DNA of 64,000 nucleotides from Prochlorococcus marinus XMU1405. Lineage in GTDB: Bacteria > Cyanobacteriota > Cyanobacteriia > PCC-6307 > Cyanobiaceae. Under the pieces are notes generated by a model, which saw nothing but the letters and a program-made list of their open reading frames with translations, was not told where the DNA came from and ran no database searches. Position numbers and translations under genes: made by a program. How positions within the stretch are numbered: the stretch's first letter is position 1; each line of letters begins with the position of its first letter. Location: assembly GCF_017696275.1 (NCBI RefSeq), contig NZ_JAAORF010000003.1, positions 248,001 through 312,000 of the forward strand, in the 5' to 3' direction. This document shows positions 49,544 through 53,196 of this stretch, one piece after another.

Positions 49544-50087
49544 TAACAACTTACCAAGTTGGAGACAAGATTTAAAATCTTCTAGAAAAAAAGAGGGGAA
49601 ATTACCCTCTAATAGATGGATACAGCTTGCAACAGTTAGCGAAGAAAATGAGCCAAGATTAAGAACAGTTGTTTTCAGAGGATGGTATAAAGATAGTTCA
49701 ATGATTATTTTTACAGATAGAAGAAGTGAAAAAATTGGGCATTTAAAATCCAACCCTAATGCAGAAATATTATGGTTCTTTTTGAAAACCAAATCACAAT
49801 ATAGATTCAAAGGGAAAATAAATGAATTAAGTGATAACAAAAATTACTGGGATTTATTATCAGAAAAATCAAAATCTTCTTGGTTTTGGGGATCTCCTGG
49901 AGAAAAAATAAACCCAAAAGTCCAATCTGCTTATGAAATATTATCCAATCTTCCCAAGTCAGAAAATTTTGTAGTTCTAAACTTTGAAATCGATTCAGTA
50001 GATCTTCTTAAATTAGAACAGCCTGTTCATAAAAGATATCTTTGGGAAAAGAGTAGGAAATGGGAAAAAGTAGAAATTAATCCTTAA
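49536..50087 (+). CDS. Pyridoxamine 5'-phosphate oxidase-related FMN-binding protein
   Basis: 183 residues. The FMN-binding split barrel is seen in WIQLATVSEENEPRLRTVVF, FRGWYKDSSMIIFTDRRSEK and NAEILWFFLKTKSQYRFKGK, which follow the PNPOx family with R-T-V-F and the R/K contact positions. It is of the cyanobacterial Alr4036 type that lacks the final PNPOx C-terminal dimer domain, so it may not be the vitamin B6 oxidase. The function is probably FMN-linked redox or flavin storage. Its ATG overlaps the previous gene's last codons. Confidence 0.85.
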   Translation: MPDNNLPSWRQDLKSSRKKEGKLPSNRWIQLATVSEENEPRLRTVVFRGWYKDSSMIIFTDRRSEKIGHLKSNPNAEILWFFLKTKSQYRFKGKINELSDNKNYWDLLSEKSKSSWFWGSPGEKINPKVQSAYEILSNLPKSENFVVLNFEIDSVDLLKLEQPVHKRYLWEKSRKWEKVEINP

Positions 50088-50161
50088 ATATTTCTAAATT
50101 GTATATTTAGGTTGAAAAAAATATTGTGATCAGTCAGTTTAAAAAAAGAAATATAATTCAT

Positions 50162-50335
50162 ATGAATTTCTCAGAAATTCCAGAAAACCCTTTTATTTTT
50201 TTATCTTGGGTAACTGCTATAGGGCTATTTATAAGTCTTTCTGAAGCAACAATTAAGATAAAACTTGAGAAGAGAAACAGTTATAAAAAAAGGTTAGAAC
50301 TAATCAACAACCTTTATCCTAAAAAGTTAGCTTGA
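50162..50335 (+). CDS. Small single-helix membrane protein
   Basis: 57 residues from the ATG at 50162 (a GTG at 50126 would add 12 polar residues). One helix FIFLSWVTAIGLFISLSEATI (about 10-30), followed by a basic amphipathic tail (KIKLEKRNSYKKRLELINNL) ending in YPKKLA. The helix plus KRRKxLExLYP-like tail resembles the microprotein at 60865. The function is unknown. Its end overlaps the doxX stop on the other strand by 9 nt. Confidence 0.6.
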   Translation: MNFSEIPENPFIFLSWVTAIGLFISLSEATIKIKLEKRNSYKKRLELINNLYPKKLA

Positions 50336-50878
50336 AGTATCTGAGAGTATATTCGCTTGCAAAAATTGAAATAAGCCGCCTTTACTTGTTTCTTCTTTAA
50401 TTTCAACTTCTTTAGAATTTTTCGATTTTGTTGAAGGAATAATTTCCTCTTCATCTTCTGATTTCAAAATTCTGATTATGACTTCATCTAAGGAGAAATT
50501 ACCAGGACCTGTTAATGCAATTGAAGTTGCTGAAGCGAAATACAAAAGTAAAAGCTCTAGCAAGAAAATATTAAAACCTGAAGTAACAAGTGCATGATAA
50601 ATAGCGACAGAAATAGTTCCGACAATCGCCAAGGCCCCGAATCTTGTAGCTAAGCCTATAATTAGTAACCAACTACCACCTATTTCAGAGAATGCCGCTA
50701 TGTATGATAAAAATATTGGGAATGGTAGATGTAAAGGTCTGACAAAAGCATCCGCGAAATTTTCTATATTTGCTAGTTTCTCGTAACCGTGATGAATAAG
50801 AACAGTTCCAGTTATGACTCTAAGAATTAATAAAGCAGTATCTTTGCTAAACGACTTTGTAAGAATTGTTGAAAGCAC
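50327..50878 (-). CDS. DoxX-family membrane protein
   Basis: 183 residues from a GTG. Four hydrophobic segments: LLILRVITGTVLIHHGYEKL, FPIFLSYIAAFSEIGGSWLL, LIIGLATRFGALAIVGTISV and NIFLLELLLLYFASATSIAL. The H-x2-x-K pattern HHGYEKLANIENF and FAEIGG-like FSEIGGS belong to DoxX/SURF4 proteins. The last 45 residues are charged and soluble. DoxX members work in membrane redox or sulfur chemistry, but the role of this type is unsettled. Confidence 0.85.
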   Translation of the reverse strand: MLSTILTKSFSKDTALLILRVITGTVLIHHGYEKLANIENFADAFVRPLHLPFPIFLSYIAAFSEIGGSWLLIIGLATRFGALAIVGTISVAIYHALVTSGFNIFLLELLLLYFASATSIALTGPGNFSLDEVIIRILKSEDEEEIIPSTKSKNSKEVEIKEETSKGGLFQFLQANILSDTSS

Positions 50879-51014
50879 TATAAAAAAATTATCCTTAAGT
50901 AAAAATAACTAGTCACAGTATTCATCGTGGATTAAACCGCAAAAGTCGCACCTAATTAAGTATTTATACTTATTGCTCTAATGAATTCTTTTTCTGATTA
51001 GGAATTCAGCTAAG
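50879..51014. other. Gap holding an open frame without a start codon
   Basis: A minus-strand frame at 50909-50977 (22 codons plus stop) reads SNKYKYLIRCDFCGLIHDE and ends in YCD. It has CxxC and a Hx3YC pattern but no ATG, GTG or TTG, and TAG lies immediately upstream in frame. I do not annotate it as a gene. Confidence 0.25.
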
Positions 51015-52169
51015 TTAAAAATTATTTTTTGAAAAATTTTCTAATATTCTCTGATTTATTTTTGGAATATTTTCTTTAAATTTAAAAAACCCTCTCTTAG
51101 CAAATTTCCAAGCAAATAAATCTTCATCCCTCACAAGATTAAAAATTTTTTTATGGTGTAAATTTTTAAACTTAGTTATGAAATCATAATTTTCTCCCAC
51201 TCCAGGATAAATAATGTCTATTTCGTTAGTATTTTTAAAAGTATTTTCCAATGAATAAGGATTAATCTGTTCAACAGTATCAAATTGCTCTACAAATTCA
51301 GAAACCAAATCTTGTTTAAATTTCAAAACAGATTCAGACAATTTAATTTGTCTTTGTTCATTTTTTAAAAGGATAATAAATACTTTTTTATACCTTGGAA
51401 GTAAATTTTTAAGGGTTGCAAGGTGCAGATCATTTTCAAACATAATCAGATTATCTGATTTAGGATCCATATCATTTTTATAAATCTCATCTTCAAATGG
51501 TATTTGATTAGATTCTTCAAGAAAAATTTGTTGATTACTTATTTTTTCTACATTAAATCTATTATTTGAAAACTTTCTGAGGTTTGATGATGAAAAAAGA
51601 TATTGTTTTCCCTTCGTTTGCAATCCTCCGACCCATCTCCAGCTAAGGAGATTAGATGAAGCATCTCCATCAAAAAGATATTTAAAGAAAAACTTTGCTC
51701 CCAATTGCCATGGGAGGCCTAAATTAAATATCCAAGTACTCGCAAACCACATTCTTGTATGGTTATGCAAATAGTTGTACTGCTTTAATTCATGTACCCA
51801 AGAATTAAAAAAATCTAATTCTGTATTGCCATTAAGTGCACTTTCATATAACTCATAATCAAAATCGAGATTGTTTTCTGAAATAAAATTTCTCCAAACT
51901 TTAGGTCTATTTTCCATCCACCCTTTCCAGTAAACTCTCCAAAATATTTCTTCAACAAATTTAGTTGAATTTTTGATTTTGTACTTACTTTTAATATCAT
52001 GGATCAGATCATATTCCGATAATATTCTATGAGTAATGAAAGGCGATAATTTTGAAACTGAACTTTCGTTATTTGGCCCAAAATCAAAATTTCTTAATTT
52101 TGCATAATCATTGATTTTGTATTTCGCAAAATTTTCCCAGGTATTTTGAGCTTTTAATAAAAATGACAT
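51015..52169 (-). CDS. Photolyase/cryptochrome-like protein with swapped domain order
   Basis: 384 residues. The N-terminal half (1-215) is the photolyase FAD-binding domain: FDFGPNNESSVSKLSPFITH (about 28-47), WRVYWKGWMENRPKVW, YNYLHNHTRMWFASTWIFNL (about 133-152), and FDGDASSNLLSWRWVGGLQT (about 168-187), the loop that folds around FAD. The usual N-terminal antenna domain is missing there. Instead, residues about 240-350 hold NLIMFENDLHLATLKNLLPR, which resembles the first strand and turn (LVWFRNDLRLHDN) of the photolyase alpha/beta domain, then VFIILLKN and more alternating strands and helices. The order looks reversed. A repair or photoreceptor role is inferred from FAD residues; neither is proven. 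Confidence 0.78.
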   Translation of the reverse strand: MSFLLKAQNTWENFAKYKINDYAKLRNFDFGPNNESSVSKLSPFITHRILSEYDLIHDIKSKYKIKNSTKFVEEIFWRVYWKGWMENRPKVWRNFISENNLDFDYELYESALNGNTELDFFNSWVHELKQYNYLHNHTRMWFASTWIFNLGLPWQLGAKFFFKYLFDGDASSNLLSWRWVGGLQTKGKQYLFSSSNLRKFSNNRFNVEKISNQQIFLEESNQIPFEDEIYKNDMDPKSDNLIMFENDLHLATLKNLLPRYKKVFIILLKNEQRQIKLSESVLKFKQDLVSEFVEQFDTVEQINPYSLENTFKNTNEIDIIYPGVGENYDFITKFKNLHHKKIFNLVRDEDLFAWKFAKRGFFKFKENIPKINQRILENFSKNNF

Positions 52170-52446: not shown

Positions 52447-53196
52447 ATGAATAATTTACTAGTGAGAAATGTTAAGTATCTAGATGAACAATACAGAATA
52501 GGTGAAGGCATAATTTCGGATGATGCATTTAAGCAACTTGAAAAGCTCTTTATTCCTGTTGATCCAGAGCCTGACTACTTTAATCAAAAAGATAATAAAC
52601 TTTTGCCAAAATTAGCCAAAGAAAACTATAAAGAATTTTTGGAAAGTTTATTAACAAAAACAAGATTAAGCATTCAACCAAAAATTGATGGCTGTGCTAT
52701 TGCAATTAGATATATAGATGGCAATTTTAATAAAGCTATTACAAAAAAAGGATTTGATGTCTCAAGTAAAATTAAACAAATTAAAAATGTCCCCGATTGT
52801 ATTCCTATCAAACGAGATTTTCAAATTAGAGGTGAACTATACGCTACAAACCAAGTTGCCGGCATTTCCAAAAGAATTACAAGAAAATACCTCAATGATA
52901 AGAAAGGGATTGGAGAAAGTCTCCGCTTTTGCTGTTACCAAATACTTAATGGAAGACTTAATCAATACGAGACCCTTAACTATCTTAAAAAATGTGGCTT
53001 CAGCACCCCTGACAGTTACTTCACAAATCATACAAGCGAAATCCAAATATATAAAAAAAATTGGTTAGAGAAAAAAATATTTGTGAAATATCCAACTAAT
53101 GGGATAGTTATAAAAATAAATAGTAGGAAATTACAGTTACTTAGAGAGAAAAGTATATCTCAAAATAACGAATGGCAATATGCAATCCAAAAATAA
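52447..53196 (+). CDS. NAD-dependent DNA-ligase-like adenylation domain protein
   Basis: 249 residues. The adenylation motif KIDG is in SIQPKIDGCAIAIRY, with Lys at about 79. A short Ia-like start (YLDEQYRIGEGIISDDAFKQ) resembles the NMN-binding helix region; RGELY (about 122) corresponds to motif III; TNGIVIKI (about 223) to motif IV; and the last residues, QYAIQK, to motif V with its Lys at the very end. The OB, zinc, helix-hairpin-helix and BRCT domains of LigA are all absent. No frameshifted remainder follows in the next 100 bp. It may be a nick-binding or nucleotidyl-transfer enzyme, or a dead relic; the intact motifs favour function. Confidence 0.75.
   Translation: MNNLLVRNVKYLDEQYRIGEGIISDDAFKQLEKLFIPVDPEPDYFNQKDNKLLPKLAKENYKEFLESLLTKTRLSIQPKIDGCAIAIRYIDGNFNKAITKKGFDVSSKIKQIKNVPDCIPIKRDFQIRGELYATNQVAGISKRITRKYLNDKKGIGESLRFCCYQILNGRLNQYETLNYLKKCGFSTPDSYFTNHTSEIQIYKKNWLEKKIFVKYPTNGIVIKINSRKLQLLREKSISQNNEWQYAIQK

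Follow-up and report, generated by a model that had tools for sequence, protein, structure and literature searches.

The locus considered here raises the question of whether a phototroph of the open ocean encodes a photolyase with its two domains in reversed order, and what such a protein would do. The window, i.e. the whole 64,000-nucleotide stretch of Prochlorococcus marinus XMU1405 that was analyzed (contig NZ_JAAORF010000003.1, positions 248,001 to 312,000), carries on its minus strand, at 51015-52169, an ATG-started open reading frame (ORF) of 384 amino acids (aa), taken from the ORF listing of the window. Its product is very likely Phr7, the Prochlorococcus photolyase of the NewPHL class, with the catalytic flavin adenine dinucleotide (FAD) domain first and a short α/β-type domain second, and by analogy with the class its function is most likely the photorepair of cyclobutane pyrimidine dimers (CPDs) in single-stranded DNA. 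The protein is homologous to photolyases in its FAD domain, conserves most of the flavin site and the presumed lesion site, has neither a third tryptophan of the electron chain nor any cysteine, is under purifying selection and groups with alphaproteobacterial proteins, all of which is directly observed. The gene and its parts are laid out as follows.

51015..52169, minus strand: phr7, very likely a NewPHL-class (inverted topology) photolyase of 384 aa without cysteine (from the ORF, Pfam, alignments, tree and literature).
51555..52169, minus strand: N-terminal FAD/catalytic domain, residues 1-205 (PF03441 match; aligned to class I photolyases).
51462..51554, minus strand: linker, residues 206-236 (the part with the highest substitution ratio in most computable comparisons, see below).
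51018..51461, minus strand: C-terminal "Z-domain", residues 237-384, predicted to fold into a five-stranded α/β domain similar to the photolyase antenna domain, with a helix of low confidence after it.
51633..51641, minus strand: W-R-W motif, residues 177-179, by alignment; invariant in 14/14 and 24/24 conservation rows.
51708..51710, minus strand: W154, the other member of the Trp dyad (alignment and conservation rows).
51750..51764, minus strand: residues 136-140, including N136, R139 and M140 (alignment and conservation rows).

The ORF and the motifs quoted for it in the first-pass annotation, which was made from the sequence alone, are present, and the assignment of the N-terminal part to the FAD-binding half of photolyases is borne out by several searches. 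In a Pfam scan, PF03441 (FAD_binding_7) matches residues 71-193 with an E-value of 6.9e-14. In agreement with this, residues 13-201 align in phmmer with the C-terminal FAD half (residues 218-416) of the class I photolyases 1tez and 1owl, and a profile of eight family members matches the FAD halves of solved class I photolyases with an E-value of about 2e-21. Since the homology sets in at about residue 13 and leaves no room for a preceding domain, the FAD domain comes first in the protein. As annotated, it is also shorter than usual, with 384 aa against 420 aa and more for most of the photolyase chains matched.

Alignment with the Escherichia coli photolyase equates W177 with W382, W154 with W359 and W179 with W384; N136, R139 and M140 correspond to N341, R344 and M345, and D167, D169 and N173 to D372, D374 and N378. 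In the E. coli enzyme, W382, W359 and W306 are taken here to be the first, second and third tryptophan of the electron chain, W384 is presumed to contact the dimer, and N341, R344 and M345 presumably belong to the active site. The lesion-contact positions of the window protein are presumed to be E74, W77, N136, M140 and W179, and all five are invariant in 14/14 diverse rows of the family. A set of 18 FAD-domain positions, picked by the analysts themselves with the alignment in view, is invariant throughout (18/18) in 24/24 Prochlorococcus rows; the same type of check on the 14 diverse rows left 17 of the 18 invariant, L41 being Ile in one row. An outside list is provided by the 13 FAD contacts given for Synechococcus elongatus (PMC9426592; this and the other papers cited are drawn on from the parts of their text that were accessible). 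Nine of these are identical, namely Y22, S39, L41, S42, R78, N136, D167, D169 and N173, or nine of the 12 placeable contacts, as W280 falls in an insertion and no position could be assigned to it.

The electron chain is shortened. W177 and W154 are invariant in 14/14 rows, and the stretch corresponding to E. coli W306 contains no Trp in any of the 14, an absence that fits "a mere Trp dyad" as stated for the NewPHL of Dinoroseobacter shibae (PMC8948257). The flavin-facing asparagine kept by NewPHL (PMC12083526) is probably N173 in the window protein. Furthermore, the complete absence of cysteine means that there is no iron-sulfur (Fe-S) cluster of the (6-4) type, and this count over the whole protein matches Phr7 as described in PMC9426592.

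Relatives of the protein are numerous, with at least 575 found in a scan of genome contigs. The best 80 all come from Prochlorococcus or from uncultured Synechococcaceae/Prochlorococcus single cells, the closest being 96-98% identical; the copy of strain MIT 9201 is 97% and that of MIT 9302 85% identical. Full-length matches occur in 13/292 cyanobacterial genomes, 12 of them of the same genus (window genome included). In all 12 same-genus genomes listed, residues 1-380 or more are matched, no same-genus genome stands among the no-match genomes listed for the 292, and none of the remaining cyanobacterial matches listed extends past query residue 228. The thirteenth genome (G137) is the only full-length case outside the genus among the matches listed: this picocyanobacterium (1.9 Mb) belongs to another genus and has a full-length Phr7-type protein of 41% identity (locus L093, C1:716975-718078).

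FAD-first relatives in Alphaproteobacteria, which the first-pass annotation had mentioned, were found in plasmid records. A Ruegeria relative finds matches to 80% or more of its length in eight such records (counting the one it comes from, and one in which the match is split in two), and six of the eight are covered to 91-94% by the window protein itself; full-length alphaproteobacterial relatives are 28-35% identical to it. A tree was built from 14 full-length FAD-first rows, 9/17 Phr4-type frames, 18/33 canonical loci (two of these rows are the same gene; the other loci gave no frame fitting the filter) and one short Deinococcus protein, a sample that leaves out other relatives, e.g. from Persicobacter, and the two characterized NewPHL sequences. 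The 14 FAD-first rows, alphaproteobacterial members included, form one clade (99/97), a branch with 100/100 support sets it apart from the 18 rows of class I type, and under midpoint rooting the Phr4-type rows are nearest to it. The cyanobacterial FAD-first rows form their own group (100/96), from which, given the warnings on long branches and composition described below, no direction of transfer between Alphaproteobacteria and Prochlorococcus is derived.

The class to which these proteins appear to belong has been described. NewPHLs or SPLs repair CPDs in single-stranded DNA and have "an inverted domain topology" (PMC13274461), although the two names possibly do not cover the same set in every case. 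In a survey of 81 picocyanobacterial genomes, Haney et al. (2022, mBio; PMC9426592) named the Prochlorococcus protein Phr7, assigned it to the NewPHL class of Emmerich 2020, and used MIT 9302 as the Phr7 example in their Fig. 1. Citing Emmerich 2020, they give CPD photolyase activity on single-stranded DNA for the proteins of D. shibae and Methylobacterium mesophilicum. The UniProt entries named for these two (PMC13274461) are A8LJA9 and M7YZC8. The same survey describes a four-gene photolyase-family pattern for most high-light strains, with which the four PF03441 genes of the window genome (two with PF00875, one with PF04244) are consistent. The suggestion of a possibly new enzyme or receptor without a characterized relative is therefore superseded: the class was known in 2020 with two characterized members, and Phr7 was named in 2022 (PMC9426592, PMC13274461). 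With both the enzyme class and the counterpart in a sister strain published, the window gene is not new; what is added is that a gene matched in every same-genus genome listed is now, very probably, identified with this class of single-strand DNA photolyases.

Comparison with the known photolyase types supports this placement. Published Phr7 shares with the window protein the organism group, the leading FAD domain, the short C-terminal Z-domain and the lack of Fe-S cysteines, and in the accessible text of PMC9426592 nothing other than the strain was found to differ. Both characterized NewPHLs (D. shibae and M. mesophilicum) share the inverted topology and, in D. shibae, the Trp dyad, and other alphaproteobacterial relatives align over most of the window protein. 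The Phr4/Phr5 pair and Phr6 of Synechococcus/Cyanobium likewise have the FAD domain first, with the α/β domain encoded by a second gene or fused. However, Phr4-type frames have 4-5 cysteines in 17/17 examined, which are the Fe-S ligands according to PMC9426592, and the four cysteine ligands that mark the bacterial (6-4) photolyases and Phr4-Phr6 are wanting in the window protein; in addition, Phr5 is recognizable by sequence as an α/β domain, whereas the second domain of the window protein is not. Class I CPD photolyases (E. coli, S. elongatus) share the FAD domain, most active-site residues and the first two chain tryptophans, but they have the α/β antenna domain (PF00875) first, a third chain Trp (W306) and an FAD domain that continues further past W-x-W; an N-terminal PF00875 domain, the mark of class I, is absent here. 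The features of NewPHL/Phr7 in sequence and architecture are found: an N-terminal FAD domain with a second domain predicted to be folded, most FAD-site residues, the Trp dyad, no Fe-S cysteines and the grouping with alphaproteobacterial proteins.

Repair of CPDs in single-stranded DNA is proposed because the characterized relatives are reported to do so. By what is published for the class, the protein would bind FAD, be photoreduced through the two-tryptophan chain W177 and W154, bind a CPD in single-stranded DNA and split the dimer, which would receive an electron from reduced FAD in a light-driven step. The C-terminal domain would most likely pack on the FAD domain and close the flavin site without an antenna role, just as the C-terminal domain of the class reportedly seals the flavin site in the work of Emmerich in 2020. 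A cryptochrome-like blue-light receptor, keeping FAD and photoreduction and signaling through its C-terminal domain, would equally conserve the FAD domain, and the three other photolyase-family genes already present in the genome also speak for such a receptor. Such a role is nevertheless improbable, as the invariance of the presumed lesion-contact positions goes beyond the needs of a receptor and two alphaproteobacterial members are reported as CPD photolyases on single-stranded DNA (PMC9426592).

The nature of the second domain is the less certain part of the answer. A permuted domain order was first proposed from the stretch NLIMFENDLHLATL, which was regarded as strongly like the opening of the photolyase α/β domain (NLIMFENDLHL vs LVWFRNDLRL). 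This resemblance turned out to be weak and without statistical support, and the argument from the motif was rejected: the Pfam scan of the window protein lists no PF00875 match up to E 10 (HMMER filters remove most hits weaker than about 0.1), and the hhalign score given below is lower than that of the best of 100 shuffled profiles. D247 is the one residue of the stretch that does not vary in the family alignment (eight rows; also 14/14). A likeness of the C-terminal 160 residues to metallo-β-lactamases in a phmmer search of the PDB (best E 0.43) was taken as noise. In the literature searched, no paper was found that joins the photolyase FAD-binding domain with circular permutation.

The inverted order is backed by predicted structure, not by the motif that drew attention to it. 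Residues 225-384, predicted alone (160 residues, 24 Prochlorococcus-type sequences), form five strands alternating with helices, with a mean predicted local distance difference test score (pLDDT) of 76.6 and a predicted template modeling score (pTM) of 0.70. In VIA-align, ranks 1-9 for this model are all photolyases or cryptochromes (Z 8.2-6.9), headed by 7ykn with a root-mean-square deviation of 2.9 over 112 residues, and such proteins make up 32/50 rows; at rank 10, a nicotinamidase has the same Z (6.9) as rank 9. According to the program's note, values of Z below about 8 can reflect no more than a common arrangement, and a fold class may be missing from the lists without being excluded. The nine best alignments all start within chain residues 1-24; five end by residue 156 and four extend to 403-430. 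With the full-length model, the nine best rows are again photolyases/cryptochromes (Z 7.8-6.4, model residues 235-367). Taken together, the models suggest that the C-terminal third is a reduced photolyase-like α/β domain, which is probable, not proven, and the reversed domain order is probably the best reading. The permuted order thus holds for the leading FAD domain and probably, on the predicted fold, for a reduced α/β-type second domain, while the PF00875 search put forward for it is negative. Neither of the two outcomes named beforehand as speaking against it occurred: the C-terminal model resembles the photolyase α/β fold, and most FAD contacts are kept.

Several results weigh against this reading of the protein, the first of them in its C-terminal third, where the α/β assignment comes from a predicted fold whose Z is close to 8. 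Compared by hhalign with 31 cyanobacterial PF00875 domains, the C-terminal region gives E 0.072 (probability 0.8%, score 16.4); 100 column shuffles of the photolyase profile reach 22.2 at best (mean 11.8), and among the control families PP-loop ATPases outscore the PF00875-type domains (E 0.029; receiver domains 0.18, ETF domains 0.19). With a Phr5 profile no clear link emerges either: the E-value is 0.095, with 15/200 shuffles scoring as high; the reverse direction gives E 0.014, for which no shuffles were run, and a receiver-domain control reaches E 0.0044 against Phr5. As a positive control, the same method connects Phr5 to the canonical α/β domains (E 6.7e-10, 0/200 shuffles). The Phr5 profile comprises six sequences, after a spurious frame (L094) was dropped and with 10/17 loci having no downstream candidate in the fetched stretch. 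Foldseek returns nothing for the C-terminal model at E ≤ 0.001 and, by E-value, ranks phosphopantetheine adenylyltransferases first (E 0.003), above photolyases.

These results speak for an alternative in which the FAD domain is joined to an unrelated domain of Rossmann-like fold, whether of nucleotidyltransferase type or another, so that the C-terminal third would share with photolyases only the general fold. Adenylyltransferases share the broad fold class with the photolyase α/β domain. On the other side stand the VIA-align ranking, with photolyases and cryptochromes in the top nine and most other rows, and the highest TMq among the 50 Foldseek rows, which belongs to the photolyase PhrB (0.50, E 0.053). 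Moreover, in the Phr4 clade, which lies nearest in the tree, a true α/β protein (Phr5) is encoded downstream in 6/17 loci examined (PMC9426592). An unrelated domain is accordingly judged unlikely, though a credible alternative to the reduced α/β domain.

The remaining points of this kind concern the FAD half and the link to the class. Three of the 13 S. elongatus FAD contacts (PMC9426592) are replaced: T240 by V38, position 346 by Y133 and A385 by S172. V38 and Y133 are found in 14/14 rows and S172 in 11/14, and position 346 is Trp in the 1owl chain. In the full-length prediction the FAD half has a pLDDT of mostly 25-45, too poor for judging domain packing or cofactor geometry; it was based on an alignment of Prochlorococcus-type sequences only (the window protein plus 23 loci out of the 80 listed), and three scans of viral contigs for more diverse relatives gave one 42-residue fragment. 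The tree carries long-branch and composition warnings, for the window row among others. Finally, in the accessible literature photolyase activity is reported for alphaproteobacterial NewPHLs only and not for the Prochlorococcus protein, and the link to the two characterized NewPHLs runs via PMC9426592 and the alphaproteobacterial relatives, not via direct sequence comparison.

The short length and the lack of PF00875 might also be those of a truncated, decaying photolyase, i.e. a pseudogene-like remnant. The ratio of nonsynonymous to synonymous substitutions (dN/dS), however, is 0.10-0.18 for the whole gene and 0.11-0.22 for the α/β part (seven comparisons each), so both domains are constrained; the linker, residues 206-236, has the highest ratio of the three parts in 3/5 comparisons where it was computable. 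Together with the near-complete matches in all 12 same-genus genomes listed and a phr7 neighborhood that is the same in 51/54 loci of at least 13 kb, this makes decay so improbable that it can practically be set aside. In the other three loci (MIT 9302, L072 and one more) the ligase-like gene alone is missing and the rest is intact.

With the reduced α/β domain as the preferred reading of the C-terminal third, its inversion might be a functional permutation in which this domain does two jobs: the five-stranded part would take the place of the antenna domain, and the last helix (about residues 364-382) would replace the end of the FAD domain that is missing after W-R-W, completing the flavin pocket from the other side of the chain. 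This idea is speculative and rather doubtful. In 22 of the 32 photolyase/cryptochrome VIA-align rows the alignment extends to chain residues 403-449, past the W-x-W motif, which is a hint only, as the ranges give just the first and last aligned residue and the model has a pLDDT of about 53-60 there.

The divergent neighbor of phr7 encodes a stand-alone adenylation domain of an NAD-dependent DNA ligase (PF01653). The window genome has three such adenylation-domain-only proteins of about 250 aa, each with the motifs KIDG and RGELY, at the following positions.

52447-53196 of the window, plus strand: stand-alone ligase adenylation domain (PF01653), divergent from phr7.
C2:33518-33991 of the genome: stand-alone ligase adenylation domain (PF01653).
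C3:3648-4127 of the genome: stand-alone ligase adenylation domain (PF01653).

In this genome, rated 100% complete, neither a full-length LigA nor a PF01653 frame longer than about 250 aa was found, and the LigA OB domain has no match there in a search that was positive in 11/14 control genomes; two ATP-dependent ligase frames are present. Across the family, the OB domain is found in 55/61 genomes, and among the 34 genomes at least 90% complete the two without it are the only two of the genus sampled (G000 and G107). It is possible that the replicative bacterial ligase has been lost in this Prochlorococcus genus, of which no statement was found in the accessible parts of the literature searched. 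A viral-family match of NAD-dependent ligase is reported only in low-light strains (PMC11357015), and an NAD-dependent DNA ligase is among the DNA-repair genes enriched in Prochlorococcus of the Red Sea and Hawaii (PMC3686209); the latter is perhaps one of the short adenylation-domain proteins.

On the alphaproteobacterial plasmids, a gene for an AarF/UbiB-family kinase lies beside or a few genes from the inverted photolyase in 5/6 annotated loci (L111, L112, L115, L126 and L127), and a DUF3429 gene adjoins it in four of the six (L112, L114, L126 and L127); three of the six loci are from Asticcacaulis. An IMG/VR contig classed as viral (L119) has 92% identity to window positions 49927-51143, where it covers the last part of phr7, all of DoxX and a portion of the pyridoxamine-oxidase gene. 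Its remaining 2.9 kb have no match to the window, and the contig may be a host fragment or a mobile-element junction.
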